Part shown: positions 22 to 18,015 of the stretch, one piece after another | Position numbering within the stretch: position 1 is the stretch's first letter | How the letters are laid out: each line of letters starts with the position of its first letter | DNA from: Pseudomonas hormoni | GTDB taxonomy: Bacteria > Pseudomonadota > Gammaproteobacteria > Pseudomonadales > Pseudomonadaceae | Length of the DNA: 64,000 bases | NCBI RefSeq assembly: GCF_018502625.1 | Contig: NZ_CP075566.1 | Coordinates: 1,617,001 to 1,681,000, forward strand | Reading direction: 5' to 3' | The notes under the pieces: model-generated | The model's database searches: none | Seen by the model: only the letters and a program-made list of their open reading frames with translations | Told to the model about the DNA's origin: nothing | Position numbers and translations under genes: made by a program

Positions 22-37
22 TCCCCGCCTTTGGGGG
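22..37. promoter_or_regulatory. Candidate enhancer site (UAS) for a sigma-54 activator
   Basis: The dyad TCCCC-GC-CTTTGGGGG lies about 75 bp upstream of a -24/-12 promoter. It matches the site at 16318-16333 at 14 of 16 positions, with only the two bases after TCCCC differing. A looser version precedes the multicopper oxidase gene (17889-17904). Position and symmetry fit an activator-binding site. The activator is inferred to be the product of 23462-24892. Confidence 0.5.
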
Positions 38-110
38 CGAGGGGTGCCTGGACGAAAAGGCTTTTCCATGGATATCAATTACATGCAGCGGTAAATCAGC
101 CGGTGCTCAG

Positions 111-159
111 CCTGGCATGAAGTGTGCGTTAGCCTCAGTAAGGCGCGCACTTCACCAGG
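111..159 (+). repeat. Long hairpin overlapping the sigma-54 promoter
   Basis: Arms CCTGG-cat-GAAGTGTGCG and CGCGCACTTC-a-CCAGG pair almost perfectly around a 15-base loop. The left arm contains the -24/-12 promoter bases (112-127), and the right arm would lie in the leader RNA. It could be an operator for a second regulator or a leader structure. No T-tract follows, so it is not a normal terminator. Confidence 0.5.
112..127 (+). promoter_or_regulatory. Sigma-54 promoter of the secretion/csgEFG operon
   Basis: The bases CTGGCATGAAGTGTGC match the -24/-12 consensus YTGGCACGRNNNTTGC, with TGG at -24 and GC at -12 in the correct spacing. The predicted start is near 139, about 55 bases before the first gene. 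It agrees with similar promoters at 16214-16230 and 17999-18015. Confidence 0.6.
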
Positions 160-195
160 CTCGGAACTCGGACCTGCGGTTTCAAGGAGTCCACC

Positions 196-729
196 TTGTT
201 AAACAAAGTACTGGTTGTCGAAGACGAAGAGCTTCTTGCCGAAAACCTCAAGGATTACCTTCAGGCGCAAGAACTGGACGTCCGGATTGCACATGACGGT
301 GCGACGGGTATCGGTGAAGCCGAACAGTTTGCACCCGATGTGATGGTGTTCGATTACCGCTTGCCCGATATGGAAGGTTTTGAGGTGCTCGATGCCGTCC
401 GCCAGAACAGGAAGTGCCATTTTGTGCTGATTACCGGGCACCCAACCGCTGAAGTCTGTGAGCGGGCCCGGCAACTGGGAGTCAGCCATATCCTGTTCAA
501 ACCGTTTCCATTGGCGGAGCTGGCCCGTGCAGTCTGTGACCTTCTGGGAATGGAGCGCGAACTCAAGGCAGGCATGAGCCGATCCGAAGGTTTTGTCGAA
601 CGACGCCAGAGCAAGACCGAGAGTTTCCCGCTGCAGTTGTACGATGGCAGTTGGGTGCTGGCGGATCGTCGACGCAGTTCATCGACCTCCAGGGCACCGG
701 ACGACGAACAATTGCTCACCGGGGAGTAG
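196..729 (+). CDS. Receiver-domain response regulator, operon head
   Basis: This is a single CheY-like receiver domain (about residues 4-118) with acidic residues E9/D10, the phosphoacceptor D53 (in DYRLPD), T80 and K102. A low-complexity tail of about 50 residues follows and carries no recognisable output domain. The start is TTG, supported by an AAGGAG at 184-189; no ATG fits the domain border. The N-terminus (VEDEELLAEN) is strikingly like that of the sigma-54 activator at 23462 (VEDDELLAEN). It may therefore share the neighbouring sensor kinases, acting as a phosphate sink or as a protein-binding regulator of the machine it is transcribed with. The partner is an inference. Confidence 0.85.
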   Translation: MLNKVLVVEDEELLAENLKDYLQAQELDVRIAHDGATGIGEAEQFAPDVMVFDYRLPDMEGFEVLDAVRQNRKCHFVLITGHPTAEVCERARQLGVSHILFKPFPLAELARAVCDLLGMERELKAGMSRSEGFVERRQSKTESFPLQLYDGSWVLADRRRSSSTSRAPDDEQLLTGE

Positions 730-813
730 TGGCGCGACAAGCCGTTCCGGTGACCGCCGTAATTGCTCGCCGCGTCGACAGGGCTCAAAGCCCCCGGCGT
801 TGGAGAGCAAGCC

Positions 814-2520
814 ATGGATCGTCTATCCCTTGCCGTCGAACCGGCGCAGTCGGAATGTGTACCGTCTCGCTTTTCCAGTGAGCAACTGTCCCAGGCACGA
901 TCGCTGGCCGCCAGTTCCGGCGAACGTATGCTTGAAGCCCTTGGGGTCCTGAGCGAACTGGCCCCCATGCCCTTCATCCAGCGCCTCGGCGCAACCCTGC
1001 ATTACCCGGTGCTCGACACCGACAGCCTGTTCAAGGCCACCCCGGTGTTCGACCGGGTCACCCTGGCCCAATGCCTCAAGCGCGAATTCATCCTGCTGCG
1101 CCACGACGATGCGGTCATCGGTGTGTTTGCTGACCCCTTCGATACGTCGCGCCTGGCCTGGATCGATGACTGTCTGCACGGTGCGCCGCTGTACCTGGTG
1201 CATGCCGACGACCTGAAGGCGTATCTGGCGCGCCACGAAGAGAGCTTCCATGCCGTGGAATCGCTCAACGCCCAGGCGGACGCCAACATTGAAATCGATA
1301 CCCTGCAAAGCCTGTCCCTGACCAGCATCAGCGAAGACGCCAGCGTCGTCGTCAAACTGGTCAACTCGACCCTGTACGACGCCTTGAAAATGCACGCCAG
1401 CGATATCCATTTGGGCACCACTGGCAGCGGTCTGGTGATCAAGTACCGCATCGACGGCGTGCTCAACAACATCAGCAAGATCCAGGGCAGCGAGTTTGCC
1501 GAACAGGTGATTTCCCGGGTCAAGGTCATGGCCGAACTGGACATCGGCGAGAAACGCGTGCCTCAGGACGGTCGCTTCAAGATCGGCATCAGTGGTCGGC
1601 AGATCGACTTCCGGGTCTCGATCATGCCGAGCATTTTCGGCGAAGACGCGGTGCTGCGGGTGCTCGACAAGCAGGACCTGGCGGACAAGGTCTGCGGCGT
1701 GCAGTTGCAAGCGCTGGGCTTTGAAGACGAAACCCTGCGCCAACTGCGCAGGCTGGCCGCCGAACCCTACGGCATGGTGCTGGTGACCGGTCCCACCGGC
1801 AGCGGCAAAACCACCACGCTGTACGCGATGATCACCGAGATCAACCACGGCGTGGACAAGATCATCACCATTGAAGATCCGGTGGAATACCAGTTGCCGG
1901 GCGTCCTGCAAATTCCGGTCAACGAGAAGAAAGGCCTGACCTTCGCTCGGGGTCTGCGCTCGATCCTGCGCCATGACCCGGACAAGATCATGGTCGGTGA
2001 AATCCGCGACCCCGATACCGCGCAGATCGCCGTGCAATCGGCGCTCACCGGGCACCTGGTGTTCACCACCATCCACGCCAACAACGTGTTCGACGTGATC
2101 GGCCGTTTCACCCAGATGGAAATCGACCCCTACAGCCTCGTCTCCGCGCTCAATGCCGTGCTGGCCCAGCGCTTGATCCGCCTGGTCTGCACCACGTGCA
2201 GCGCGCCGAGTCACCCGACTGACGATGAATTGCGCGCCTCGGGCCTTGATCCGCATAACGTCGATCACTATCGCTTCGTTCACGGCAAGGGTTGCGGCCA
2301 TTGCCGGGGCACCGGTTATCGCGGGCGCACGGCGATTGCCGAACTGCTGCACCTGGACGACGAGCTGCGGCAGATGATCGTCGAGCGCCAACCGATTTCG
2401 AAAATCAAGGTCCATGCGTGCAAACGTGGCTTGCGCCTGCTGCGCGAGTCGGCGCTGGAACTGGTTGCAGAGGGGCGGACCACGCTCGAGGAGATCAATC
2501 GTGTCACTTTTGTCTCGTGA
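814..2520 (+). CDS. GspE/PilB-family secretion ATPase
   Basis: The product is 568 residues. The N-terminal part (about 15-150) resembles the MshE/GspE N domain, and the C-terminal half is the AAA-type motor. Visible motifs are the Walker A GPTGSGKTT, the Walker B region IMVGEIRDPDTA, the His box (TTIHAN) and a four-cysteine zinc knuckle (CTTC and CGHC). In type II secretion, MSHA and type IV pilus systems this cytoplasmic ATPase drives pseudopilus assembly. The start is the ATG at 814 behind a GGAGA; an upstream in-frame start at 763 has no ribosome site. The gene is followed by GspL/M/N/C/D/G-like genes, but the partner platform protein GspF is not encoded in the window. Confidence 0.93.
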   Translation: MDRLSLAVEPAQSECVPSRFSSEQLSQARSLAASSGERMLEALGVLSELAPMPFIQRLGATLHYPVLDTDSLFKATPVFDRVTLAQCLKREFILLRHDDAVIGVFADPFDTSRLAWIDDCLHGAPLYLVHADDLKAYLARHEESFHAVESLNAQADANIEIDTLQSLSLTSISEDASVVVKLVNSTLYDALKMHASDIHLGTTGSGLVIKYRIDGVLNNISKIQGSEFAEQVISRVKVMAELDIGEKRVPQDGRFKIGISGRQIDFRVSIMPSIFGEDAVLRVLDKQDLADKVCGVQLQALGFEDETLRQLRRLAAEPYGMVLVTGPTGSGKTTTLYAMITEINHGVDKIITIEDPVEYQLPGVLQIPVNEKKGLTFARGLRSILRHDPDKIMVGEIRDPDTAQIAVQSALTGHLVFTTIHANNVFDVIGRFTQMEIDPYSLVSALNAVLAQRLIRLVCTTCSAPSHPTDDELRASGLDPHNVDHYRFVHGKGCGHCRGTGYRGRTAIAELLHLDDELRQMIVERQPISKIKVHACKRGLRLLRESALELVAEGRTTLEEINRVTFVS

Positions 2521-3304
2521 TCGTTTTGTCGCCGTCATCGGCGCCAGTGGTATCGGCCTCGGTCAACGCCGTGGCAGCGAAACCCTGTGGCTGGGCAGCG
2601 TCGGATTTATCGACGAAGGCTTTCACGCCTGGGCAGTGGCGCTGGACACCCTCGACCATCTGCTGTCCGACCACACCCGTGCCGGTGCCGAGTTGAGAGT
2701 GGTGATTTCCGGGCACTTCAGCCGCTTCTGCCTGGTGCCCTGGAGCGAACAGATCAGCAGTCCCGACGAGTTGATCGGCTTTGCCCGGCTGTGCTTCGAA
2801 GACCTTTACGGTACGCCGGCTCAACCCTGGAGCCTGGTGCTCTCGGCAGAGCCGGCGGGCTACGACCGGATCGCCTGTGCGTTGCCGCAGGAATTGCTCG
2901 GGCGTCTGCGCACACTGGTCAGCGCCCGTGGCCTGCGCTTGCGTTCGGTGCAGCCGTACCTGATGGCGGCGTTCAACCACTTCGATAAAAGTCTCGATAC
3001 CGGCAACTTCCTGTTCGTGGTCGCTGAACCGGTGCGCAGCGTGTTGCTGCTGGCACGGGAAGGCCGCTGGACTTCGGTGCGTTCGGTGGGCAGCAGCGAC
3101 AGCGACGCCGCACTGACCGCACTGATCGGCCGCGAAAGCCAATTGCAGGCCTCCACCAGCGAGCGGCCATTGAACGTCTACCTGCATGCCCCTGCGCGCA
3201 TCGATGTGCAGCCCGACGTACCCGACGTGCATTTGCGCACCCTTGAAGAAGGCCGGACACCCGTACGCGATTGCCTGTACGTCATGTCCCGGGCGGTGGC
3301 CTGA
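2501..3304 (+). CDS. GspL/PilM-like assembly protein
   Basis: The product is 267 residues with no membrane segment and an actin-like-ATPase type of fold pattern (IGASGIGLGQ near the start and SGHFSRFCLVPW around 70-80). It is placed where PilM or the cytoplasmic part of GspL sits in secretion and pilus operons, directly before a PilN-like bitopic protein. Such proteins connect the motor ATPase to the inner membrane platform. The GTG start at 2501 overlaps the end of the ATPase gene by 20 bases and has GAGGAG just upstream. The family call rests mainly on order and size, since sequence similarity of this group is weak. Confidence 0.7.
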   Translation: MSLLSRDRFVAVIGASGIGLGQRRGSETLWLGSVGFIDEGFHAWAVALDTLDHLLSDHTRAGAELRVVISGHFSRFCLVPWSEQISSPDELIGFARLCFEDLYGTPAQPWSLVLSAEPAGYDRIACALPQELLGRLRTLVSARGLRLRSVQPYLMAAFNHFDKSLDTGNFLFVVAEPVRSVLLLAREGRWTSVRSVGSSDSDAALTALIGRESQLQASTSERPLNVYLHAPARIDVQPDVPDVHLRTLEEGRTPVRDCLYVMSRAVA

Positions 3305-3305
3305 G

Positions 3306-3851
3306 ATGCGCGCCCTGAACCTCGACTTTCAGCCGCGCCGCCGCTCAGGCCCGTTGGGCTGGAGCCTGCTGGCCGGGGGCGTGGTGCTGACTCTGAGTTG
3401 CGTCCTGTTTCAGCAGCACCTCAGTGATGAAACCGCGCAACAACAGGGTCATCTGCAAACCACCCAGCGCGTCCTCACCGGCGACACCGGTGGCAAAGTC
3501 AGCCTGACCCCGGCGCAAATCCGCGAGCAGGCGCAGAACCTCGCCGAGATGCGCAAGGTCTCCCAGCAACTGCGCCGGCCCTGGGAAAACCTGTTCGCGA
3601 TGCTTGAAGCCATGCCTCGCGAAAACATCGCCTTGCTGACCCTGACACCCGACGCCCGCAAAGGCCAGGTGCGGATCAGCGCCGAGGCCAAAGACCTGGA
3701 TGCCATGCTCGACTTCCACCGCAACCTCGAGGCCAGCGACGAGCTGTCCGATGTGTCGCTGCTCAGCCACGAAATCGTCGCCAACGTGCCGGAGCACCCG
3801 GTGCAATTCAACCTGTCGGCTACCTGGGAGATTGGCGATGCGAATCCCTAG
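3306..3851 (+). CDS. PilN-like inner membrane assembly protein
   Basis: The product is 181 residues: a short basic cytoplasmic N-terminus (NLDFQPRRR, like the NLLPWR start of PilN), one membrane helix (about 17-37), then a periplasmic coiled region and a small alpha/beta domain. PilN/GspL proteins bind the PilM-like partner through the N-terminal peptide and PilO/GspM through the periplasmic part. The ATG follows the upstream stop by one base and the 3' end overlaps the next gene, as expected for translational coupling. Confidence 0.72.
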   Translation: MRALNLDFQPRRRSGPLGWSLLAGGVVLTLSCVLFQQHLSDETAQQQGHLQTTQRVLTGDTGGKVSLTPAQIREQAQNLAEMRKVSQQLRRPWENLFAMLEAMPRENIALLTLTPDARKGQVRISAEAKDLDAMLDFHRNLEASDELSDVSLLSHEIVANVPEHPVQFNLSATWEIGDANP

Positions 3852-4386
3852 ATTGATCGTCCACGAATACCTGCAAGGCCTGGGCATTCCCGGTCTGGCG
3901 GGGCTGGCGATGCTGGCGCTGGCGTCGGTCTATGGCCTGGCGGGCCTGATGCCGGACTGGCAGTCGCTGCAACAGCTCAGCCAGCAGACCCGCGAAGCCG
4001 GCGACTACCTGGCCAGGGTTGAAGACGGCAGCGTCGCCCCCCCGGTGGTGCCGCAACGTCAGCTCGACGACTTCCGCAGCAAACTGCCTTCGCAACCTCA
4101 AGCCACCGTGGCCATCGACAGGATCTACGCACTGGCGGCCCAGGAACACATCACCCTGGCACGGGGTGAATATGCCCTGGGCATCGACCCCAAGACGCAT
4201 CTGGCCCGTTATCAGATTCTGCTGCCAGTGCGCGGCAGCTACCCGCAACTGCGGCGCTTCCTGCATGCCTTGCTCGGCCAGTTGCCGGCTGTGGTGGTGG
4301 AGGATGTGGAGTTCCAGCGCAAGAAAATCGCCGACACCGACCTGACCGGGCGGATCCGCATGACCCTTTACCTGTCGAGGTCATGA
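3838..4386 (+). CDS. PilO/GspM-like inner membrane assembly protein
   Basis: The product is 182 residues with a membrane helix at about 18-40, a coiled segment, and a C-terminal ferredoxin-like domain containing a PilO-type stretch (RYQILLPVRGSYPQLRRFL). Together with the preceding PilN-like protein it would form the periplasmic scaffold of a secretion or pilus platform. The start overlaps the previous gene by 14 bases. Confidence 0.7.
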   Translation: MRIPRLIVHEYLQGLGIPGLAGLAMLALASVYGLAGLMPDWQSLQQLSQQTREAGDYLARVEDGSVAPPVVPQRQLDDFRSKLPSQPQATVAIDRIYALAAQEHITLARGEYALGIDPKTHLARYQILLPVRGSYPQLRRFLHALLGQLPAVVVEDVEFQRKKIADTDLTGRIRMTLYLSRS

Positions 4387-4904
4387 TGAATACCAAGCGC
4401 GTAGCGGGGTGGGTGGGGTTCTTCGGCGTGGCGGCGGCGCTGGCCTGGTTGCCCGATTACTTCATGCCGGCCGACGAGGGCGATGCAAGCGTGGCCGTCG
4501 TCGCCACCCCGACCCAAAGCAAAACCCGTGGTGCCCTGCCTGCCGCACCAGCGTCTGGCAAACCGGCGGTGGTGAAAGACTTGAGCCCGGCGGGTGACCT
4601 GTTCGCCGCCCGCAGCTGGAAAGCGGCGCCGACCCTCGCCAGCGTCATCGAACAACCCGTCAATGAAACCCCGGTGGTGCAAGTCCCCAGTGCACCGCCG
4701 ATGCCTTTCCAGTTTGTCGGGAGGCTGGATGACCGTTCCGACCTGCAAGTGTTTTTGCAGAACGGCGAAAAAATATACGTCGTACGCAAAGGGGATGTGA
4801 TCGACGAAACCTGGCGGATCGAAGCCATTTCCGATGTGGAACTGAGCTTCGTCTACCTGCCTTTGCATGTGTCCCAGACCTTGTCTGTGGGGAGCGCGCC
4901 ATGA
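4383..4904 (+). CDS. GspC/PilP-like bridging protein
   Basis: The product is 173 residues: an N-terminal membrane anchor (about 7-25), a long Pro/Ala-rich periplasmic linker, and a C-terminal homology-region domain (MPFQFVGRLDDRSDLQVFLQ, then VRKGDVIDETWRIEAI) of the kind that contacts the secretin N0 domain. In type II secretion and MSHA systems this protein joins the inner membrane platform to the outer membrane secretin. I recall annotation pipelines calling similar genes a 'secretion system X' factor, which is only a name. It overlaps both neighbours by 4 bases. Confidence 0.72.
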   Translation: MMNTKRVAGWVGFFGVAAALAWLPDYFMPADEGDASVAVVATPTQSKTRGALPAAPASGKPAVVKDLSPAGDLFAARSWKAAPTLASVIEQPVNETPVVQVPSAPPMPFQFVGRLDDRSDLQVFLQNGEKIYVVRKGDVIDETWRIEAISDVELSFVYLPLHVSQTLSVGSAP

Positions 4905-6739
4905 ATAGAAGCCGTTTGCTGATGAGCCTTGCCTGCCTCTGCGCAGGGCTGGCCGCGTGCAGTTCCGCACGGGTCGCCAACAAGGAAGCGTCCGAGCTGA
5001 TCGAGCAGGGACAATACGAAGCTGGCCTGGCGCGCATCGAAGAAGGATTGCGGGAAAACCCTCGCGACACCGAACTGCATCTGGCCCTCAATACCGCACA
5101 CGCCAAAGCCATTACTGCATTGCTGACTGCGGGCGATACCGACCGCGCACACCGGGACTTCGCCTCGGCACGGGTGAACTACAGCCGGGTGCTGACCATC
5201 GAGCCGAACAACCGCCGCGCCCAGGATGCGATGCGCCAACTCGAGTACCTGCGCAGCATGAACGAAAAACTCGAGTTGGCCCGCGGCGACCTGCGTCGTG
5301 GTGACATCTACGCGGCTGATCGCCAGGTCAAACAGATCCTCGAACTGGACCCGCAAAATGATGGTGCCCTCGAACTGCAAGGCAGCATCCGCCTGGTCCA
5401 GAGCCGCAACGTGATCCCGTATCCACAGCTGCGCACGCGCCTGGACCGGCCGGTGACCCTGGAGTTTCGCGACGCCAACCTGAAAACCATTTTTGAAGTG
5501 CTGTCCCAGGTCGCCGGGTTGAATTTCATCTTCGACAAGGACCTGCGCCCGGACATGAAAGCCACGATCTTCGTGCGTGACGTGCGCATCGAAGACGCCG
5601 TGGAACTGCTGCTGCAACAGAACCAGCTGCACCAGAAAGTGGTGAACGAAAACACCTTGCTGATCTACCCGGACTCCCCGCAAAAGCTCAAGGATTACCA
5701 GGAGCTGGTGATGCGCACCTTCTACCTGACCAGCATCGATGCCAACACCGCGCTGAACATGATCAAGACCATGCTCAAGACCCGCGACGTGTTTGTCGAT
5801 GAACGCCTCAACACCTTGACCATGCGCGATACCGAAGACGCCGTCCGCATGGCGGAAAAACTCCTGCAATCGCAAGACCAGTCAAACCCGGAAGTGGTGC
5901 TGGAAGTGGAGGTGATGGAAGTCGCCACCCAGCGGATTCTTGACCTTGGCCTGCAATGGCCGAACACCTTCGGCGTGGTCAACAGCGACGGTTCGCCGGT
6001 GCAGCTGCTCAATCAACTGAAAGGTATCGACTCTAGCCGGATCACCATCTCGCCATCGCCCCAGCTCAAGATCAACGCCCAGGACAACGACATCAACACC
6101 CTCGCCAGCCCGGTGATTCGCGTCAGTAACCGCGAGCAGGCGCGCATCCACATTGGTCAGCGTGTGCCGATCATCAGTGCCACCTCGGTGCCGTCGACCC
6201 AAGGGCCGGTGATCACTGAAAGCGTCACGTACCTGGACGTCGGTCTGAAGCTGGAAGTGCAGCCGACCGTGCACCTGAACAACGAAGTAGCGATCAAGAT
6301 CGCCCTGGAAGTCAGTAACGCCACGCCGCTGGAACCGACCCGTCAGGGCACGATTCCGGTTCAGGTCGATACCCGCAACGCCCAGACCACCCTGCGCCTG
6401 CATGATGGTGAAACCCAGATCCTCGCCGGCCTGATGCGCAACGACCATGGCGCCACCGGCAACAAGATTCCGGGTCTTGGCGACATCCCTGGCCTGGGCC
6501 GGTTGTTCGGCAGCAACAAGGACAACGTCAGCAAATCGGAACTGGTGTTGTCGATCACGCCACGGATCGTGCGCAACCTGCCGTACCAGAGCCCCTCGGA
6601 CATGGAATTCCCGACGGGCACTGAAACCAGCATGCACATTCAGGCACCGGACCGGCAGATGGAATCGTCGATGTCGAACGAACGCCTCGACCGGCCGGTG
6701 GCGGCCACCACGACCCAAGTCGTGATCGGGAAGCCTTGA
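4901..6739 (+). CDS. Secretin (GspD/MshL-like) outer membrane lipoprotein with N-terminal TPR region
   Basis: The product is 612 residues. A lipoprotein signal with lipobox LAAC is followed by a helical TPR-like segment (about 30-150). Next come an N0/STN domain (LEFRDANLKTIFEVLSQVAG), N1-type domains, and the secretin core beginning near VVLEVEVMEVATQRILDLGL. The core ends with the signature PGLGDIPGLGRLFGS and ELVLSITPRIVR. Secretins form the outer membrane channel of type II secretion, pilus and MSHA systems. The TPR segment ahead of N0 is unusual compared with GspD and could replace a separate pilotin or assembly factor, which is an inference. It starts 4 bases inside the previous gene. 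Confidence 0.9.
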   Translation: MNRSRLLMSLACLCAGLAACSSARVANKEASELIEQGQYEAGLARIEEGLRENPRDTELHLALNTAHAKAITALLTAGDTDRAHRDFASARVNYSRVLTIEPNNRRAQDAMRQLEYLRSMNEKLELARGDLRRGDIYAADRQVKQILELDPQNDGALELQGSIRLVQSRNVIPYPQLRTRLDRPVTLEFRDANLKTIFEVLSQVAGLNFIFDKDLRPDMKATIFVRDVRIEDAVELLLQQNQLHQKVVNENTLLIYPDSPQKLKDYQELVMRTFYLTSIDANTALNMIKTMLKTRDVFVDERLNTLTMRDTEDAVRMAEKLLQSQDQSNPEVVLEVEVMEVATQRILDLGLQWPNTFGVVNSDGSPVQLLNQLKGIDSSRITISPSPQLKINAQDNDINTLASPVIRVSNREQARIHIGQRVPIISATSVPSTQGPVITESVTYLDVGLKLEVQPTVHLNNEVAIKIALEVSNATPLEPTRQGTIPVQVDTRNAQTTLRLHDGETQILAGLMRNDHGATGNKIPGLGDIPGLGRLFGSNKDNVSKSELVLSITPRIVRNLPYQSPSDMEFPTGTETSMHIQAPDRQMESSMSNERLDRPVAATTTQVVIGKP

Positions 6740-6741
6740 TC

Positions 6742-7215
6742 ATGAACGCCTCGCAACGCGGTTTTACCCTGATTGAAGTCGTGGTGACGCTGGCCCTGAT
6801 CGGCTTGCTGGCCGGCATGGCCGCGCCACTGACCGAGACCGTGGTGCGCCGGGGCAAGGAGCAGGATTTGCGCACGGCGCTGTACCAGATCCGCGATGCC
6901 ATCGACGCCTACAAACGCGCCTTCGACGCCGGTTACATCGAGAAGACGCTGAACAGCAGCGGCTATCCGCCGAACCTCAAAGTGCTGGTGGACGGTGTGC
7001 GCGATGTGCGCAGCGCCAAGGGTGCCAAGTTCTATTTTTTGCGCCGCGTGCCCCGTGACCCGCTGGCCCAGGTCAAGCGCGACGACGAAGGCGGCTGGGG
7101 GCTGCGCACCTATGACAGCACGGCTCAGAACCCGCGCGAAGGCGAAGACGTCTTTGACGTTTATTCGAAGGCGCGCGGCAAGGGTCTCAACGGTATCGCG
7201 TACCGGGAGTGGTGA
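6742..7215 (+). CDS. Type II-like pseudopilin, GspG family
   Basis: The product is 157 residues. A prepilin leader ending in G is followed by FTLIEVVVTLALIGLLAG, with Glu at mature position 5 and an about 20-residue hydrophobic helix. The body is GspG-like (YQIRDAIDAYK, then a loop and a C-terminal REW). I chose the ATG at 6742; an alternative TTG lies 6 bases upstream over the secretin stop codon. A prepilin peptidase would have to be supplied from elsewhere in the genome. Confidence 0.85.
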   Translation: MNASQRGFTLIEVVVTLALIGLLAGMAAPLTETVVRRGKEQDLRTALYQIRDAIDAYKRAFDAGYIEKTLNSSGYPPNLKVLVDGVRDVRSAKGAKFYFLRRVPRDPLAQVKRDDEGGWGLRTYDSTAQNPREGEDVFDVYSKARGKGLNGIAYREW

Positions 7216-7219
7216 GCTT

Positions 7220-7594
7220 ATGCGTCGGGAAAAGGGTTTTACCCTGCTGGAACTGATGGTGGTCATGGCAATTATCGCGACCCTGATGACCATCGCCATG
7301 CCGCGCTATTTCAACAGTCTCGAGGCCTCGAAAGAGACCACGCTGCGCCAGAGCCTGTCGGCGATGCGTGAAGCGCTGGATCACTATTACGGCGACACCG
7401 GGCGTTATCCCGATTCCATCGAGCAACTGGTGGAGCAGCGCTACCTGCGCAACCCGCCGATGGACCCGATTGCCGAGCGCAAGGATCTCTGGGTCATGGT
7501 CGCGCCGCCGGACGGCGTACCCGGCGGGGTCGCCGATATCAAGAGCGGAGCCACAGGGAGGGCGCGTGATGGCAGCCTTTATTCCGAGTGGTAA
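7220..7594 (+). CDS. Type II-like major pseudopilin, GspG family
   Basis: The product is 124 residues: leader MRREKG, then FTLLELMVVMAIIATLMTIA (Glu at +5), followed by a classic GspG segment (LRQSLSAMREALDHYYGDTGRYP, broken here as LRQSLSAMREALDHYY and GDTGRYP) and a proline-rich loop with DP residues. It is the most canonical of the three pseudopilins and probably the main subunit. It follows the preceding gene after 4 bases. A REPIN separates it from the next gene. Confidence 0.87.
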   Translation: MRREKGFTLLELMVVMAIIATLMTIAMPRYFNSLEASKETTLRQSLSAMREALDHYYGDTGRYPDSIEQLVEQRYLRNPPMDPIAERKDLWVMVAPPDGVPGGVADIKSGATGRARDGSLYSEW

Positions 7595-10518: not shown

Positions 10519-10528
10519 TCCCCCGAAA

Positions 10529-11974
10529 TTACTGCTGCAACACCGTCGCCCGGTTATCCGTCCCCACCTGCTGAACAGTCGCCATCTGCGTCATGCCGCT
10601 CTGATCAACATTGGCAATGTTCCCGCTGCCACCCTGGGTCACATACGCCACGTTCATCGTGTCAGCCTGTTTCACAGTGATCTGGTTATCGTTGCCCCAC
10701 TGGGTGGTGTAAGCCTGGTTGTCGCTGCCGGACTGGTCGAACGCGGTGCTGTTGCCCATACCGTTGCTGCTGCCCTGAGCCAGGTTGGTGGTGCCGCGCT
10801 GGTCGGCGATGAGGACGTTGTCGCTGCCGTTTTGGTCGAAGTACAGCTCGTTGTAGTTCTCGGCCTGGCTGACGGTGGTTTTGTTGCCGGTGCCGGTCTG
10901 GTGGGTGGTCATGATGTGGCCGACGCCGTCTTGCGTAAAGTTGGCGATGTTGGCGTTGCCGGTCTGGGTGACGGTTGCGCTCTGGTTGCTGCCGAACTGG
11001 CCACCTTTTTGCGGACCTTTCCAGTTGCTGGCGTAGACCTTGTTGTCGCTACCCACCGAGGTGGCGGTGAGTGAATGGCCTTCGCCGGTCTGGTAGGTGA
11101 AGTGCGTGTTGCCAGTGCCTGTCTGGTACAGCGCGATGGTCGAGCCAGTGGACTGGAACTGGTCGGCATAGATCGCGTTGAGGTCGCCAACCTGGAACAC
11201 GTGGGCGGTGTTGTTTTCGCCGAAGCTCTGGTCGACCACGGTTTCGTTGCTTAAGCCGATCTGGTCGACGGTGGCTTCGCTGCCGACTTGTCCGTCTTGC
11301 CAGATTTCAGTGCCGTTGCCTTCGCCGAGCTGGTTGATGGTCAGGTTGCCGCCGTCGCCATTTCGCTGGTCGCCGTAGGCATAGTTGCTGGTGCCGGTCT
11401 GGTTGATGTCGATCTGGCCGCCCATGTGGTTGATCTGTTCGGCGGTGGCGTAGTTGGTGGTGCCGTACTGGATGATCACCGCGGTGTTGGCGATGCCGGG
11501 CTGGATCTGTTCGATGTAGGCTTCATTGCTGTCACCGAACTGGAAGGTTTGACCGGTCGTGCCGTCCTGGCTGTCCTGATAGACGAACGAGAAGTTGCCG
11601 CTGCCTTGCTGTTGTTGCAGCACTTCACCGCTACCTGCGCCCATCGACTGGCTGGCGTGGCTGGTGTTGAAGCTGCCGGTCTGTTGCTGGGTGATTTTGC
11701 TGTTGTCTTCGAACAATTGCTCGGCGTAACCCGCGTTGTATTCGCCAACCTGGTTCTGCTCGATGGTGCTGGTGGCCGTGTCCTGCTTGGCGGCCGCGTC
11801 GTTGCCCTGGCCGAGTTGCTGCTGGGTGGCGGTGCTGAAGGGGGCCAGGGTCTGCTTCACGTCGGCGACGTTGGCGGTGCCGACCTGATCCTGGGTGGAA
11901 ACGCTGTCGTCGGCCATCGCCTGGGCACTGACAATGACCAGGACGGCGGCGGTGAGGGGCGTCAGTTTGAACAT
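10529..11974 (-). CDS. Large curlin-repeat amyloid subunit (CsgA-like)
   Basis: The product is 481 residues: a signal peptide (about 1-21, ending AQAMA) followed by about 20 curlin repeats of 20-25 residues with the spacing Q-x-G-x-x-N-x-A-x-x-x-Q. Examples are QVGEYNAGYAEQ, QTGTSNYAYGDQ, QVGDLNAIYADQ and QGGSGNIANVDQ. Such repeats stack as beta-solenoid rungs in curli amyloid. E. coli CsgA has five, so this is a roughly fourfold longer fibre subunit. Cysteine is absent and Q/N/G/T dominate. The export genes csgEFG converge from the other side. The opposite strand shows a long open frame, which is a by-product of the repeat composition. Confidence 0.92.
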   Translation of the reverse strand: MFKLTPLTAAVLVIVSAQAMADDSVSTQDQVGTANVADVKQTLAPFSTATQQQLGQGNDAAAKQDTATSTIEQNQVGEYNAGYAEQLFEDNSKITQQQTGSFNTSHASQSMGAGSGEVLQQQQGSGNFSFVYQDSQDGTTGQTFQFGDSNEAYIEQIQPGIANTAVIIQYGTTNYATAEQINHMGGQIDINQTGTSNYAYGDQRNGDGGNLTINQLGEGNGTEIWQDGQVGSEATVDQIGLSNETVVDQSFGENNTAHVFQVGDLNAIYADQFQSTGSTIALYQTGTGNTHFTYQTGEGHSLTATSVGSDNKVYASNWKGPQKGGQFGSNQSATVTQTGNANIANFTQDGVGHIMTTHQTGTGNKTTVSQAENYNELYFDQNGSDNVLIADQRGTTNLAQGSSNGMGNSTAFDQSGSDNQAYTTQWGNDNQITVKQADTMNVAYVTQGGSGNIANVDQSGMTQMATVQQVGTDNRATVLQQ

Positions 11975-12001: not shown

Positions 12002-12463
12002 TTAGCGGTATTGTTTGACCGAAACGCTCATGCCGTTTCCCGACTGGCTCACGGCGCTGGTAAGCCCCGTGCCGGCCTGGTCGATGCTGGCGTCGTTGTT
12101 GTTGCCGTTCTGGGAAATCTGCGCGCGGTTCTGGCTGCCGGTCTGCGTGATCGAGGCGGAGTTGCCGGAACCTTGCTGAGTGATCATCGCCATCAGGTCG
12201 CTGCCTTGTTGCAGGATATAAGCCTCCTGATTGCTTCCCGACTGGACGATGGTGCCGAGCAACGACTGGCCGTTCTGTTGCAGCAGTGCCACGTTGGCCT
12301 GTCCGTTCTGGTCGATCAGCGCGTGCTGGCCAATCGGCGGTGGCAACTCGCCGAGGTCGGCGCCGGGGGCCAGGTCGTCGTTCTCCATCAGATCGTCGGC
12401 GCGCACGCCTGCGCTGCTGCAGAGCAGAAACAGGCAGAGCAGGGTGGCGATCGACGTTTTCAT
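12002..12463 (-). CDS. csgB: Minor curlin, CsgB-like nucleator
   Basis: The product is 153 residues: a signal peptide (about 1-22), an acidic/proline-rich spacer, then about five curlin repeats (QNGQANVALLQQ, QSGSNQEAYILQ, QQGSGNSASITQ, QTGSQNRAQISQ and QNGNNNDASIDQ). It ends in SVKQYR. The length matches E. coli CsgB (151 residues), which nucleates CsgA on the cell surface. It sits 27 bases upstream of the large subunit gene in the same operon, the usual csgB-csgA order. CsgB is preferred over CsgA because of size and neighbours. Confidence 0.85.
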   Translation of the reverse strand: MKTSIATLLCLFLLCSSAGVRADDLMENDDLAPGADLGELPPPIGQHALIDQNGQANVALLQQNGQSLLGTIVQSGSNQEAYILQQGSDLMAMITQQGSGNSASITQTGSQNRAQISQNGNNNDASIDQAGTGLTSAVSQSGNGMSVSVKQYR

Positions 12464-12522: not shown

Positions 12523-14769
12523 TCAGTTCGAGATCACCGACACCGTGCGCACGGTGCCTTGGGACGAGGTGATGGTGGCGGTCGGGTTCGCCGACGGAAT
12601 CACCGCGGTGGTGTTGTTAACCGTCAACCGCCAGCGACCGGTCACCGGTACCGTGGCGGTGCCCAGGGTCGCCAATCCGGTCGGGGTGCTGACCCGGATG
12701 GTGATGGTGTTGCCGGTGGTCACCGATGAAGTGCCCGCAAAGTCCCAGGTGAAGCGGTTATTGGAACGCGCCGACACCGTAGCCGTGGTCACCGTGAAGG
12801 TTTCTGCCGGTGGCCGGGGCGAGACTTGCACGGTGACCGTCGCCGGTGCCGTCGACACGGCGCCCAGGCTGTCTCGGGCGATGTAGGTGAAGGTCGTGGT
12901 GAACGCCGTCGTGACGGTGGCCGGTGGGGTGTAGGTGATCACCGTGCCGTTGCTGCTGACCGTGCCGCGACCGGCTGCCGGTTGGGTGAAACTGGCGACG
13001 GCCAGCGGCACGTTGCCTTCCGGATCGGTGTCGTTGAGCAGCACATTGATCGGCACCGCCACGCCCAGCGTTGCGATGCTGTCCGCGACAGCCACCGGTG
13101 GCCGGTTAGGCGCCACGGTGATGGTCACGGTCGCCGGGGTTGCCGAGGCCAGGCCTTTGACGTCTTGAGCCTTGTAGGTGAAGGTCGTGGTCAGCGGCAC
13201 AGTAACCACGGCTGGCGGCGTGTAGACCACGGCGGCCGAACCGCTCAACGCCACGGTGCCTTGCCCGGTGGCCGGTTGGGTCAGCGCGGTGATGCTCAAC
13301 GGTACGTTGCCGTCCGGATCGCTGTCGTTGGCCAGCAGGTTGAGGGTCAGCGGCACCCCGAAGCTGGTGCTGCCGGTGTCGGCAACGGCCAGCGGCGGCT
13401 GGTTCTCACCGCTGTTCGGTGCCGTTCCGGCCACCACAACCGGTTCGGTGTCACTGCCGCCCGCGGCGGACTTGACCGTGACGCTGGCCGGTGGCTGTGG
13501 CAGATCGGTGACGGTCAGGCGTTGCAGGGTGCCGGACTTCGACAGACGTCCGTAACCTTGAGCGACCATGTCCGGCACGGCCACTTCATCTGTGGAAGTG
13601 GCCTCAATCAGCAGGCTGTGATTGCTGAAGTTGTAGCGAGCGGTCTGGATTTTCACCAGGTCAGTGAGCTTGCTCGACACCGCCGTGGGCCGAGTGGTGC
13701 CCGTCGGGTTGGTGGCGGTGAGTACCACAACCGAAGGCACCGTGCCGGTGATCAGATGCTGACCGAAGAACAGCCCGTTGTTGTCGCCCACCAGGTTGGT
13801 CTGGCACGGCGAAAGCGGTGGTCCGGGAACCAGCGCGACGGTTTCACGGAAGCACAGCGTCGAGCTGTTGTCCGCTTTGCCAAAGACTTCGACCCGGGTG
13901 CTGCTGCCGGTGCCGGAGGGGATGCGCCGGTAGGTGGCACGGCCCATTTCCACATGGGTTTGCGCACGGTTGTCGAGGACCTTCCCGGCGAGGGTGAAGA
14001 GGTTGGTCTGAATGGTCCCCGCCGGCCCGGTGATGCGCACGAAGTTGGTGTTGTTCGGGCTGCCGGTGACGGCTTCGGTGAGGTTAGGGTCGCCGACGAA
14101 GGTTTCGACGGTGCCGGTGTCCGGGTTCACCTCGGTGTAGGGGCCGTTGACGCTGCGCAGGAATGGCCCGATGGCCCCGTTCACGGCACCGCTGAAATTA
14201 CCCGGCGCGCCGATGCCGACATCTTTGGTGATGTTGATCGCACGCCGGCCCGGCGTGGTGACGTTCACCGTTTCCACACCGTAAGGGTGCGTGACGGTGT
14301 AAGTCCCGGCGGTGGGCACGTTCACCCGGATGCGAATCCGCGCGAAGCTTTGCTGATCGCCATCGATGGGGTTTTCCGAGGCGAAGGCCGCTTCGATCCC
14401 GGCCACGTAGGCATCCATGCCATAGCCGGCGGCGTTGTTGGCGATGGAGGTTTCGGCGAGGAACCAGAAGGCTTCCGGCGGCCAGTTATCCGGGAACACC
14501 ATCGGTTGGCTGTCGTCATAGACGCCGGGTTCCGGCAGCAGGGTGCACATGTAGGACGGCGGCACCGTGGCTGGTACCCGCGAGCTCGCGGCCCGGGACT
14601 GACACAGCTCCATCGACAGCAGATTTTTGTCCTGATACCACATGGGGAATTTCCCCGTGGCGAAGGTGTAAGGGCCGGGGTCGACGGCGGCGAGTTGCGC
14701 GTACGCGCTGCCGGACAGCGATAGAGTCAGCCCCAGGGCGTTGAGCGCCAGGCGTGGCCAATTGTTCAT
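12523..14769 (-). CDS. Secreted protein: unknown N-terminal module plus Ig/cadherin-like repeats
   Basis: The product is 748 residues with a signal peptide (cleavage near SAYA-Q). The first about 430 residues are homologous to the whole of the neighbouring protein (14805-16154). Shared blocks are VDPGPYT, WYQD, SSRVP, YMCTLLPEPGVYDD, EAFWF, RVNVPTAGTYTVTHPYGV, GRRAINI, FLRSVNGPYTE and GDPNLTEAVTGSP. After this come two cadherin/Big-type repeats (about 452-550 and 553-650) with the phrase NRPPVAVADS...NDTDPEGNVPL and a further C-terminal beta domain. I do not recognise the N-terminal family. The start is the ATG at 14769 behind AGGAGG. Cotranscription with curlins suggests a matrix or surface protein. 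Confidence 0.8.
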   Translation of the reverse strand: MNNWPRLALNALGLTLSLSGSAYAQLAAVDPGPYTFATGKFPMWYQDKNLLSMELCQSRAASSRVPATVPPSYMCTLLPEPGVYDDSQPMVFPDNWPPEAFWFLAETSIANNAAGYGMDAYVAGIEAAFASENPIDGDQQSFARIRIRVNVPTAGTYTVTHPYGVETVNVTTPGRRAINITKDVGIGAPGNFSGAVNGAIGPFLRSVNGPYTEVNPDTGTVETFVGDPNLTEAVTGSPNNTNFVRITGPAGTIQTNLFTLAGKVLDNRAQTHVEMGRATYRRIPSGTGSSTRVEVFGKADNSSTLCFRETVALVPGPPLSPCQTNLVGDNNGLFFGQHLITGTVPSVVVLTATNPTGTTRPTAVSSKLTDLVKIQTARYNFSNHSLLIEATSTDEVAVPDMVAQGYGRLSKSGTLQRLTVTDLPQPPASVTVKSAAGGSDTEPVVVAGTAPNSGENQPPLAVADTGSTSFGVPLTLNLLANDSDPDGNVPLSITALTQPATGQGTVALSGSAAVVYTPPAVVTVPLTTTFTYKAQDVKGLASATPATVTITVAPNRPPVAVADSIATLGVAVPINVLLNDTDPEGNVPLAVASFTQPAAGRGTVSSNGTVITYTPPATVTTAFTTTFTYIARDSLGAVSTAPATVTVQVSPRPPAETFTVTTATVSARSNNRFTWDFAGTSSVTTGNTITIRVSTPTGLATLGTATVPVTGRWRLTVNNTTAVIPSANPTATITSSQGTVRTVSVISN

Positions 14770-14804
14770 GATGCCTCCTGATGAGGATCTGGGCATGTGA
14801 GCGT

Positions 14805-16154
14805 TCATTGCACGATGACCACTTCTTCGGTATCGCTGCCGCCATTGGATGACGTCACCCGAACCTTGGCCGGTGGAATCGGTGAGATCCCGGTGGCCAG
14901 GCTTTTGACCGCGCCGTCGCCACTGAGGGCGCCGATGGCAACGCCGGTGCCCGAGGTGGCGTTCAGCACTGGCGGCGAAGTTTCGTCACTGGTGGAGGCC
15001 ACCACCGTTATTTGCCCGGTACTCAGGCTGTACTCGGCGCGCTGGATCACCACCAGGTCGGTCAGCGGCATGGGCAAGGTAGTTGGGGTGCTGCTTGGGA
15101 TGGCCAGGTGGTTGTCGGCGGTCACTTGCAAGGTGCTTGGCAAGCTTGGGTTGGTCGACGACTGTGCGTACCAGTTGCCGGTGGTGTTGGCTTCGCGCAG
15201 GTTCAGCACTGGGTTGTTGCTGTCCAGGGTGACGGTGGCGGGTGGCGGCGGAGCCATGACGAACACGTCCTGCTGCGCCACCGGTGCGCTGGCGCCGGCA
15301 TGTCGCGAGTAGGTGCTGCGCTGGGGGATCATCGGTGTCGGCCGGATCACGCTCGACAATTTGCCGGAGACGGCGAATACCGTGGTCCGCAGGTCCAGGC
15401 CTCCTGGCCCTTCGATGCGGATGAAGTTGGTGTTGAACGGGCTCCCGGTGACGGCTTCTTCGAGGTTCGGATCGCCGATGAAGGTTTCCGCCTGACCGGT
15501 GACCGGGTTGGTTTCGGTGTAAGGGCCGTTGACGCTGCGCAGGAAGGGGCCGACATCACCTTTGAGGGCGCCGTCGTAGGTCTTCGGCGTACCGATGCCG
15601 ATGTCCCGGGTCATGTTGATCGCGCGCCGACCGGGGGTGTCGATGTTGAACACATCGACGCCGTAGGGGTGGGTGATGACGTAGGTGCCGGCGGTGGGCA
15701 CGTCGACGCGAATGCGCACCCGGGCGAAGCTGACCTGGTCGCCGTCAATCGGCTCTTCGGCGGCGAAGGCGGCTTCGATGGCCGAGCCGTAGGCCAGGTC
15801 GATGCCCCTGGCCGCATCGACAATCGTACCGTCGACGGTGAACCAGAACGCTTCATCGGGAAAGTTGGTCGGGAAGACGATCGGTTGCGCGTCGTCGAAC
15901 ACCCCCGGCGTCGGCAGCAGGTTGCACATGTACGTCGGTGCGCCCGGCACACCGGGCACCCGTGAACTGACAGCCTTGGACAGGCAAAGATCAAGAGTTC
16001 GACCGTGGGTGTCCTGATACCAGGCAGCAAAGGCACCGTTCTTGGTGGTGACGTAAGGACCGGGGTCGACAGCGAACAACGCTGCCTGGGCGACGCCTTG
16101 GGCCAGAGTGGACACGACCAGGGCGATCGCGGTTTTGGACAGTAAAGGGTGCAT
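14805..16154 (-). CDS. Secreted protein of unknown family, first gene of the curlin operon
   Basis: The product is 449 residues: signal peptide (GVAQA-A, about residue 24), then the same module as the next gene (VDPGPYVTT, WYQDTHGRTLDLC, SSRVPG, YMCNLLPTPGVFDD, EAFWF, VDVPTAGTYVITHPYGVD, FLRSVNGPYTE, IGDPNLEEAVTGSP). It ends at SSNGGSDTEEVVIVQ, just where the longer paralogue continues into its Ig-like repeats. It contains few cysteines, one in LDLCLSKAVSS and one in YMC, both conserved in the paralogue and possibly forming a disulfide. The start is the ATG at 16154; a longer open frame upstream crosses the sigma-54 promoter. The function is unknown. Confidence 0.78.
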   Translation of the reverse strand: MHPLLSKTAIALVVSTLAQGVAQAALFAVDPGPYVTTKNGAFAAWYQDTHGRTLDLCLSKAVSSRVPGVPGAPTYMCNLLPTPGVFDDAQPIVFPTNFPDEAFWFTVDGTIVDAARGIDLAYGSAIEAAFAAEEPIDGDQVSFARVRIRVDVPTAGTYVITHPYGVDVFNIDTPGRRAINMTRDIGIGTPKTYDGALKGDVGPFLRSVNGPYTETNPVTGQAETFIGDPNLEEAVTGSPFNTNFIRIEGPGGLDLRTTVFAVSGKLSSVIRPTPMIPQRSTYSRHAGASAPVAQQDVFVMAPPPPATVTLDSNNPVLNLREANTTGNWYAQSSTNPSLPSTLQVTADNHLAIPSSTPTTLPMPLTDLVVIQRAEYSLSTGQITVVASTSDETSPPVLNATSGTGVAIGALSGDGAVKSLATGISPIPPAKVRVTSSNGGSDTEEVVIVQ

Positions 16155-16213: not shown

Positions 16214-16230
16214 GGCAACTTCCATACCAA
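16214..16230 (-). promoter_or_regulatory. Sigma-54 promoter of the curlin/matrix operon
   Basis: Read on the reverse strand, TTGGTATGGAAGTTGCC fits YTGGCACGRNNNTTGCW, with both GG (-24) and TTGC (-12) intact. The predicted start is near 16203, about 50 bases before the ATG at 16154. A TCCCC-N6-GGGGG dyad lies about 90 bp upstream. Confidence 0.65.
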
Positions 16231-16317: not shown

Positions 16318-16333
16318 TCCCCAGCTTTGGGGG
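16318..16333. promoter_or_regulatory. Candidate enhancer site shared by curlin operon and kinase gene
   Basis: The dyad TCCCC-AG-CTTTGGGGG is nearly identical to that at 22-37. It sits in the 272-bp region between the reverse curlin operon and the forward sensor kinase gene, about 90 bp upstream of the curlin -24/-12 promoter. A further TTGGGGAAG is at 16345-16353. A TATAAC at 16391-16396 could be a -10 element for the kinase gene. Nothing else was seen in this gap. Confidence 0.5.
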
Positions 16334-16426
16334 TAGATGGAAAATTGGGGAAGTGCGGACCCAGGGTCGGGCAAACAGCCATGAGTGGGCTATAACCAAT
16401 GGGGGGAACCGCCGAGAAGTACGCCC

Positions 16427-17872
16427 ATGAACTTGCCTACGCAAACGCTCCCGTCCGAGGAGGGCACTCGCCTGAGCTCGCGCAAGCAGCCGTTCAACCT
16501 GCTGCGCTGGTTTTCGCTCATCAGCATGGCGGTGATCGGCACGGTGGCGGTGGCGCTGGGCGCAGTGTCCACGCGGTTTGTGATTACCGAGAGCGTACAG
16601 CGCGATGCGATGTTGACCTCGCAGTTCATTCAGACGATCGCATACGCCGAGATGCGTCATGTGTCGATCCCGAATGTGCGGACCATGGGCGAGCTGCTGG
16701 ACCCGCGCAAAGACAGGGATTTCCCGGACGTCGACCCGATGGACCGCGCCAATGTCCGGGGCGAATTTCTCGACCATATCGAGCACCTGCCGGACGTGAT
16801 CCTGGCCAACATCTATGCGCCCGATCGCATGGTGGTCTGGTCGACAAACCCGGCATTGATGGGAACCACGATCCTCGCCGACGAAGACCTGGAGCAGGCG
16901 TTTGCCTCCAGGAAGCCGGTGTCGACCAGCTACCACAATGTCGACAAGGCACGCATGGAGCAGAAGTTCGTATCGCCACCGGATTTCATCTTCATCGAAA
17001 ACTACATTCCGCTGTTCGATGCCGATGGGAAGAACGTCACCGCGATGGTGGAGATCTACAAGGAACCGAAGGACCTGATCGACCGCATGGAGCGCGGCCT
17101 GGTGTTGATCTGGCTGGCCACCGCGCTGGGCGGCGGGCTGATTTATCTGGGGCTGTACTGGATCGTGCGCCGGGCGGCGATTCTGCTGGCGGTGCAACAA
17201 AAACAATTGATTACCAACGAGACGTTCGTTGCCCTGGGTGAGATGTCGTCGGCGGTGGCCCACAGTTTGCGTAACCCGTTGGCGACCATTCGCTCAAGCG
17301 CCGAGCTGGCGCTGGAGTTCGACAGCGGCCCGGCGCACAAAAACATCACCGACATCATCGGCCAGGCGGATCGCATGTCGAAATGGGTAAGGGAACTGCT
17401 GCAATCCTTGCGCCCGCTCCATGACGAGCCCGAAGCGGTGAACCTGGTGGCGGCGTTGCATGACAGCCTCATGGCCTTCGAACAGCAGATCGCCAACGCC
17501 GGGGTTCACGTGGTGTTCGAGCCGAAGGACACGCCGATGGTCCTGAGCCAGCCAATACAGTTGTCGCAAATCCTCAGCAGTTTGTTGGCCAATGCGCTGG
17601 AAGCCATGGACAAGGGCGGCACGCTGACCATCACCCTGGAAGCCACTGATGCCCGAGGCGTCAGTATGGTGGTGAGAGACACGGGCAAAGGCATGAACGA
17701 GGAACAACGCAACCTGGCCTTCCGGCCGTTTTTCACCACCAAGCAAGGCGGGCTGGGTGTCGGGCTGGTGCTGGTCAAACGAATCATGGAACGCTACGGC
17801 GGTGCCGTGAGCCTGGAAAGTTGCGAGGGCGAGGGCACGTGTGCACGCCTGTCATTCAAGCGGATTCCCTGA
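16427..17872 (+). CDS. Membrane sensor histidine kinase, MnxS1-like
   Basis: The product is 481 residues: an N-terminal membrane helix (about 27-48), a periplasmic sensor segment of about 150 residues, and a second helix (about 212-235). These are followed by a phosphoacceptor helix with HSLRNPLATIRSSAELALE and a HATPase domain with N box NALEAMDKGG, DTGKGM and GGLGVGLVLVKRIMER. It is a close paralogue of the kinase at 21973-23493. The arrangement of two such kinases flanking an oxidase and SCO gene, followed by a sigma-54 regulator, resembles mnxS1/mnxS2/mnxR of P. putida GB-1, required there for Mn(II) oxidation. The ortholog assignment is by memory of that system and context. Confidence 0.82.
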   Translation: MNLPTQTLPSEEGTRLSSRKQPFNLLRWFSLISMAVIGTVAVALGAVSTRFVITESVQRDAMLTSQFIQTIAYAEMRHVSIPNVRTMGELLDPRKDRDFPDVDPMDRANVRGEFLDHIEHLPDVILANIYAPDRMVVWSTNPALMGTTILADEDLEQAFASRKPVSTSYHNVDKARMEQKFVSPPDFIFIENYIPLFDADGKNVTAMVEIYKEPKDLIDRMERGLVLIWLATALGGGLIYLGLYWIVRRAAILLAVQQKQLITNETFVALGEMSSAVAHSLRNPLATIRSSAELALEFDSGPAHKNITDIIGQADRMSKWVRELLQSLRPLHDEPEAVNLVAALHDSLMAFEQQIANAGVHVVFEPKDTPMVLSQPIQLSQILSSLLANALEAMDKGGTLTITLEATDARGVSMVVRDTGKGMNEEQRNLAFRPFFTTKQGGLGVGLVLVKRIMERYGGAVSLESCEGEGTCARLSFKRIP

Positions 17873-17888
17873 AATGGGGGATGAACTT

Positions 17889-17904
17889 TCCCCGGTAGCG
17901 GGTG
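17889..17904. promoter_or_regulatory. Weaker candidate enhancer site upstream of the oxidase gene
   Basis: TCCCC-GGTAGC-GGGTG keeps the outer arms of the dyad found at 22-37 and 16318-16333 in the same 16-base span, about 95 bp upstream of the -24 element. It overlaps a larger inverted pair, TGGGGGATGA (17875-17884) and TCATTCCCCA (17905-17914), which may be an additional or alternative binding site. Confidence 0.35.
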
Positions 17905-17998
17905 TCATTCCCCAGTCGTTTTTTCGGGCGTGGCAAATTGATGTTGATAAGCCATTGTTTCGATAGGTATTAATCTTTCGAATAAACTTGTTACAAGT

Positions 17999-18015
17999 CT
18001 GGCTAGCTCCTTGCA
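17999..18015 (+). promoter_or_regulatory. Sigma-54 promoter of the multicopper oxidase operon
   Basis: CTGGCTAGCTCCTTGCA has TGGC at -24 and TTGCA at -12 in exact consensus spacing. The predicted transcription start is about 30 bases before the ATG at 18057. Confidence 0.7.

Follow-up and report, generated by a model that had tools for sequence, protein, structure and literature searches.

The 64-kb window analysed here (the whole stretch, C1:1617001-1681000 of a 6.48 Mb Pseudomonas genome) carries genes for curli, a type II-like secretion machine and a multicopper oxidase, and its locus is a Pseudomonas Mn(II)-oxidation island. Promoter signals shared by these units suggest that curli and the partner secretion machine very probably belong to the regulon of MnxR, a sigma-54 response regulator encoded in the same island. 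MnxR would be the protein bound at the dyads described below, and the csg and gsp transcripts would depend on it. Most Pseudomonas curli loci have no nearby csgD, and MnxR with sigma-54 is a candidate for what replaces CsgD in these Pseudomonas, providing a named candidate regulator with a defined candidate site.

A dyad and box pair at the curli and secretion promoters

The units in question are an operon joining the secretion machine to curli export (Gsp-csgEFG), an operon joining two secreted proteins to curlin subunits (SecX-Big9-csgBA, where SecX is our label), the oxidase gene mcoA and the mnxG operon just outside the window. The signal they share pairs a -24/-12 box with a dyad, TTCCCC-N6-GGGGAA, whose centre is in most cases 80-105 bp farther upstream. 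The sequence-only reading had placed two similar dyads, a weaker third and a box at each of three units in the window. All the dyads are present, TCCCCGCCTTTGGGGG and TCCCCAGCTTTGGGGG are identical at 14 of 16 bases as claimed, and the boxes proved right to within one base (Table 1). The Gsp promoter has a second dyad 41 bp farther upstream, outside the window (C1:1616981-1616996). The sequence TCCCCNNCTTTGGGGG has two exact matches genome-wide, which are the Gsp and SecX promoter dyads. The composite pattern CCCCN6GGGG-N66..96-TGGYAYN6TGC likewise has exactly two matches in the 6.48 Mb, the Gsp-csgEFG and SecX-csgBA promoters, and the reversed pattern used as a control has no match in this genome. 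The genome has a single perfect TTCCCCN6GGGGAA, which stands some 200 bp ahead of mnxG and is followed by a box close to consensus, TGGCATGCGGATTGCT. This bearer of the perfect 18-mer is the gene for which the accessible parts of PMC11409713 and PMC11930936 give a Mn-responsive promoter with predicted sites for sigma-54 and integration host factor (IHF).

Of the named relatives found, P. migulae is the closest (MnxR 97%), and the order mnxS1-mcoA-SCO-mnxS2-mnxR is found also in P. psychrophila (L257). Since this five-gene order matches both MS-1/DSV-1 and P. psychrophila, the multicopper oxidase is assigned as the Mn oxidase McoA and the activator encoded at 23462 as MnxR. The latter carries a receiver, a sigma-54 AAA+ domain and a helix-turn-helix (HTH) domain in the Pfam scan. 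The sigma-54 activator domain PF00158 has 27 matches genome-wide, 23 of them strong, and the only one inside the window belongs to this gene, as the sequence-only reading had stated.

Conservation across the genus

Among 298 Pseudomonas genomes, an MnxR orthologue cut-off of E <= 1e-120 separated 102 genomes with MnxR from 196 without. The composite pattern occurs in 102/102 of the former (mean 2.0 matches) and in 21 of the latter (mean 0.11). Reversing the pattern gave 11 matches in the 298 genomes, and a spacer one base too long, as a negative control, gave matches in 6/298. SecX is present in 101 of the 102 genomes with MnxR, the sole exception being a 73%-complete assembly, and in 0/196 of the others. 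A close CsgG (at least 72% identity) is encoded in 94/102 and 0/196, respectively. Seven further genomes, all without MnxR, have only a distant csgG of about 50% identity. This second curli type, in which csgE-csgF-csgA adjoin csgG and csgB, comprises nine loci (L299-L307; seven in the genomes without MnxR, two as second copies in genomes with it), and no exact dyad occurs in 15 kb at each.

The dyads could instead bind some other sigma-54 activator or a repressor co-inherited with MnxR, leaving MnxR to act on the oxidase genes only. The genome offers 23 strong activator domains, the binding of MnxR to the dyads is itself deduced from sequence, and the weakest dyad belongs to mcoA, a gene published as Mn-responsive. 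The pair of dyad and box nevertheless tracks MnxR in all 102 genomes, mnxG carries a perfect copy, and the Pfam scan gave no DNA-binding family for the stand-alone receiver encoded at 196. We consider another regulator unlikely and keep MnxR as the candidate.

Conservation was followed promoter by promoter in loci centred on csgG and on mnxR, taken from 60 of the remaining 93 genomes that have a close csgG, at 38 composite matches elsewhere and in two regions of G276. At Gsp-csgEFG, an exact CCCCN6GGGG lies 50-170 bp upstream of the box in 63/63 promoters, with a second exact dyad 40-45 bp away in 61/63. Inner spacer bases vary while the arms and spacer edges are kept, and in the box the TGGCA, GAAG and TGC columns are 97-100% conserved. 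The dyad-to-box distances (73, 82-85, 93-94, 104-105 and 124) fall near whole helical turns. SecX promoters retain an exact dyad in 60 of 62 cases, with G225 and G042 each falling short by one mismatch; G024 was left out of this set, its locus being cut inside SecX and the match being to the Big9 paralogue (46% identity). The SecX start and the sequence before it are included in 70 of the 80 named loci, and dyad and box are both present in 68 of the 70 when GC or GT is accepted at -12. The mnxG operon has an exact dyad at 22/27 promoters, and at mcoA the variant TTCCCCN6GGGTG recurs in many relatives. An IHF-like site between dyad and box was found in 49% of Gsp promoters (31/63, with 8 or 9 of 9 positions), 75% of mcoA promoters and 41% of mnxG-operon promoters, the last share being counted before ten further mnxG promoters joined the set; shuffled sequences gave 2-11% overall and 2% for Gsp.

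The sequence-only reading had named free variation of the dyads between close strains as an outcome that would speak against it, and checked across species the dyads of the Gsp-csgEFG and SecX-csgBA promoters do not vary freely. Palindromes of this kind might also be intrinsic terminators or repetitive extragenic palindromic (REP)-like intergenic elements without any regulatory role. The distal Gsp dyad does follow directly on the SurA stop codon, and long inverted repeats occur elsewhere in the locus. The dyads are not followed by a T run, however, and the kept arms around a variable spacer, the fixed spacing to the -24/-12 box, the second dyad at 40-45 bp and the recurrence of these dyads at unlinked SecX and mnxG loci make such an origin highly improbable. 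A role as binding sites for MnxR remains our preferred reading of the dyads.

The pair is retained where the island is dispersed. Among 37 fetched composite matches in genomes with MnxR, 34 precede the mnxG operon (16), SecX-Big9-csgBA (15) or mcoA (3), and 12 of the 15 SecX matches are at least 95 kb from csgG or on another contig. At three loci (L181, L182 and L197) what comes first downstream is not mnxG itself but the beta-propeller gene of its operon. One of the remaining three matches precedes a 53% response-regulator homologue (G265), and two (L198 and L215) precede neither such a homologue nor one of these units. In genomes of the GB-1 type, which have mnxS1-mnxS2-mnxR together without mcoA, the units stand at separate loci and the signals are kept. 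Several mnxR-centred loci have no McoA match, the genomes themselves not having been searched for mcoA elsewhere.

These dispersed layouts bear on the idea that curli and Gsp genes are in the island by neighbourhood only, the shared motifs being a duplicated and non-functional promoter. All units are adjacent in the genome studied here, and SecX and Big9 are paralogous, as such a duplication would have it. The GB-1-like layouts keep the motifs with the units apart, and upstream of SecX little else is kept: between -300 and -50, conservation reaches 95% or more only in the dyad arms, a single base of the spacer, the flanking C runs and the -24/-12 box. We regard mere neighbourhood as very hard to credit, and membership of the MnxR regulon as the better account of the shared motifs. 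The sequence-only proposal of one sigma-54 circuit for the secretion machine, curli export, curlin genes and oxidase, with the 23462 product as activator, finds good support in conservation, also at loci far from mnxR; the dyad of the mcoA branch is poor.

A genome with partial losses, G276, keeps the Gsp, SecX and Big9 genes with dyads and signals (L217 and L218), with no csgE-csgF-csgG or csgB-csgA match in the two fetched regions and no csgG in its genome. Curli export and curlin subunit genes thus appear to be lost or kept jointly, and the Gsp machine and SecX/Big9 may work without curli. Separately, at the G265 locus (L308) two dyads and a box come before the response-regulator homologue, and the 13 kb retrieved there gave no match to csg, SecX or Gsp genes.

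Several observations weigh against a single MnxR code. Taken alone in the window, neither the exact CCCCN6GGGG dyad (2 found, 1.99 expected) nor the TGGYAYRN5TGC box (2 found, 1.35 expected) exceeds chance; single counts were therefore rejected as evidence, and the case rests on the pair and on conservation. The perfect mnxG dyad is too far from its box for the composite pattern, which consequently does not report it, and the second dyad nearer to that box is imperfect. No exact dyad is in range at 5 of the 27 mnxG-operon promoters, and mcoA has an exact CCCCN6GGGG in only 6/36. The -12 element of SecX reads GC in 52 of 62 promoters, GT in nine and GA in one, and the ten without GC look like one group, by appearance rather than a tree. 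An IHF-like site is found in 0/61 SecX promoters. The helical pattern is a poor or loose fit for three distances, 77 (G225), 124 (G060) and 128 (G235), and a single dyad-to-box distance, shared by descent, accounts for most of the 63 Gsp promoters. The Fisher tests of co-occurrence ignore shared ancestry. Among the 21 genomes with a composite match and without MnxR, the one locus looked at (L216) contains no island gene. Finally, the regulatory claims as a whole are read from sequence.

We suggest that Mn(II), or a consequence of Mn(II), would act via MnxS1 and MnxS2 on MnxR. Active MnxR would bind TTCCCC/GGGGAA half-site dyads, usually two of them about 42-44 bp apart before the Gsp operon, and contact sigma-54 polymerase at the -24/-12 box through a DNA loop, the box lying mostly 80-105 bp downstream of the nearer dyad centre. 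IHF would help at some promoters. Four units would be opened, namely the mnxG operon, Gsp-csgEFG, SecX-Big9-csgBA and, through weaker sites, mcoA. Mn oxidase, type II-like machine, curli export and curlin subunits would then be made together, and the oxidases might be placed in or beside the amyloid matrix. As mcoA, the SCO gene, mnxS2 and mnxR lie close together on one strand here, the circuit may feed back on itself in this genome. A broader proposal, that one Mn-sensing sigma-54 code builds a Mn-biomineralising amyloid matrix from the oxidases, their exporter, curli, SecX and Big9, with Mn oxide on a co-expressed curli scaffold, is tentative and in our judgement falls slightly short of an even chance. 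On the MnxR-regulon reading, oxidase, secretion machine and amyloid would form one programme, which might explain why some Mn oxidisers would form mineral-laden aggregates and points to SecX and Big9, of no named family, as programme members.

Gene content and layout of the island

Family scans and a reading of 20 kb upstream of the window give the island a length of about 36 kb. Upstream of the window come the minus-strand genes gspF and gspG, next a gene for a lytic transglycosylase and then the mnxG operon, in the order mnxG, beta-propeller, SCO, SCO, periplasmic-binding/cytochrome and SurA. MnxG has no Pfam match, and its name rests on operon order as compared with the order published in the accessible part of PMC11409713. 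The Gsp-csgEFG operon comprises the response regulator, GspE, inner-membrane Gsp/Pil-like components, the secretin, pseudopilins and csgE-csgF-csgG. SecX, Big9, csgB and csgA run convergent to it, and mnxS1, mcoA, the SCO-cytochrome gene, mnxS2 and mnxR are divergent from SecX.

Type II secretion is represented by GspE, a GspD secretin and pseudopilins, with GspF and GspG encoded upstream of mnxG. The Gsp operon of the window lacks parts that these gspF and gspG genes (L009:5560-7257, minus strand, mnxG side) may provide. GspC had no match in the Pfam scans, and 4383-4904 is unclassified. A search for the secretin in 293 genomes of the order matched in its own genome alone. The curli (type VIII secretion) parts present are the CsgG pore, CsgE, CsgF and curlin-repeat subunits, and the CsgD and CsgC families were not among the matches of the 24 window open reading frames scanned with Pfam. 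SecX is paralogous to the N-terminal part of Big9 (47% identity). Searches for a SecX family gave nothing at curated cut-offs, and its AlphaFold model is poor (mean predicted local distance difference test, pLDDT, of 56).

Two further features of the locus were recorded. An extra -24/-12-like box, CGGCACAGTGCTTGCG, precedes the lytic transglycosylase gene upstream of mnxG (L009:7318-7404; C1:1604318-1604404), and its GG and GC are kept in 11/11 aligned genomes. Its region has no exact CCCCN6GGGG dyad in this genome, and GGGG-N6-CCCC-N7-GGGG lies between box and start. Between csgG and csgA (9935-10528) there is a 342-bp inverted repeat with arms at 10050-10219 and 10222-10391, 86% complementary, and more repeats around it.

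Table 1. Promoter elements and genes of the island within the window, with positions counted from its first base
Feature	Position	Strand	Basis or remark
Proximal MnxR-like dyad of the Gsp-csgEFG promoter, TCCCCGCCTTTGGGGG	22-37		
Possible IHF site TATCAATTACATG between dyad and -24	73-85	+	8/9 positions of the IHF consensus WATCAANNNNTTR
-24/-12 box TGGCATGAAGTGTGCG of Gsp-csgEFG	113-128	+	GG-N10-GC
Single-receiver response regulator, first gene of the Gsp-csgEFG operon	196-729	+	Pfam Response_reg
GspE-type ATPase	763-2520	+	Pfam T2SSE
Inner-membrane Gsp/pilus-like components: PilN, GspM/PilO-like, two unclassified	2510-4904	+	Pfam PilN, T2SSM_b
Secretin, GspD-like	4901-6739	+	Pfam Secretin
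Pseudopilin-like genes: two with N-methylation motif, third unclassified	6736-8234	+	Pfam N_methyl
csgE	8222-8620	+	Pfam CsgE 8.5e-35
csgF	8617-9048	+	Pfam CsgF 5.1e-32
csgG	9080-9934	+	Pfam CsgG 2.2e-81; solved CsgG chains E 5e-82
csgA-like curlin, 481 aa, 21 QxGxxN motifs	10529-11974	-	Pfam Curlin_rpt; PDB 8c50
csgB-like curlin	12002-12463	-	Pfam Curlin_rpt
Big9, large secreted protein with Ig-like domains and an N-terminal SecX paralogue	12523-14808	-	
SecX, secreted protein, first gene of the SecX-Big9-csgBA operon	14805-16154	-	No named family
-24/-12 box TGGTATGGAAGTTGCC of SecX-Big9-csgBA	16214-16229	-	GG-N10-GC
MnxR-like dyad TCCCCAGCTTTGGGGG of SecX-Big9-csgBA, between SecX and divergent mnxS1	16318-16333		
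mnxS1 sensor histidine kinase	16427-17872	+	Pfam HisKA, HATPase_c; published gene order
Weak mcoA-promoter dyad TCCCC-GGTAGC-GGGTG	17889-17904		
-24/-12 box TGGCTAGCTCCTTGCA of mcoA	18000-18015	+	GG-N10-GC
mcoA multicopper (Mn) oxidase	18057-20864	+	Pfam Cu-oxidase_2; gene order as in the accessible part of PMC11409713
SCO1/SenC-cytochrome c protein	20861-21895	+	Pfam SCO1-SenC, Cytochrom_C
mnxS2 sensor histidine kinase	21973-23493	+	Pfam; gene order
mnxR sigma-54 response regulator	23462-24892	+	Pfam Response_reg, Sigma54_activat, HTH_8

Comparison with known manganese-oxidation and curli systems

According to the accessible parts of PMC11409713 and PMC11930936, Mn oxidation depends on MnxS1, MnxS2 and MnxR in P. 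putida GB-1 and is lost in MS-1 upon an rpoN insertion; for the GB-1 promoters PmnxG (266 bp) and PmcoA, sites for IHF and sigma-54 are predicted, and both promoters work only when Mn is present and the cells are in stationary phase. The sigma-54 dependence of the MnxS1/MnxS2/MnxR system with McoA and MnxG is therefore already in print in these sources, and the oxidase branch is not the new regulatory logic that the sequence-only reading had made of it. The present island shares the mnxS1-mcoA-SCO-mnxS2-mnxR order with MS-1/DSV-1 as given in PMC11409713, again in the part accessible. It also shares with the published system, as far as that account goes, the mnxG operon with SCO, SCO, ABC-cytochrome and SurA genes and the sigma-54/IHF predictions at PmnxG and PmcoA. 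It differs in that the regulon would extend to the Gsp-like machine with csgEFG and to SecX-Big9-csgBA, for which we propose a common enhancer dyad.

In 2003 de Vrind (cited in PMC3056050) reportedly described a Gsp-related pathway, presumably the one named Xcm, for the Mn-oxidising factor of P. putida GB-1. It likewise ties a type II-like machine to Mn oxidation and is probably the same operon as the Gsp operon of the window. The co-transcription with csgEFG and the MnxR-type promoter proposed here set the present operon apart.

P. putida has csgEFG and csgAB according to PMC3056050, the accessible part of which treats MnxS/R (with mnxG) and curli in separate sections without a link between them; no other paper in the literature searched contains both mnxG and curli. 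A 2012 survey (PMC3521004, in the part accessible) found no csgD near csg in Pseudomonas except P. stutzeri and suspected another, unnamed regulator. Neither curli nor csg is mentioned in the main text of PMC11930936, PMC11409713 or PMC8218464; the first also lacks the term type II secretion, and the second the word secretion. An MnxR-type signal at Gsp-csgEFG or SecX-csgBA was not found in the literature searched, to which the primary papers on MnxR and the Gsp pathway did not belong, so that part of this may be in print. The enterobacterial curli system, encoded by csgDEFG and csgBAC under the control of CsgD, has CsgE, CsgF, CsgG and curlin-repeat subunits in common with the island. In the island, by contrast, csgEFG ends a Gsp operon, csgBA stands behind two secreted proteins, and control is predicted to be by sigma-54.

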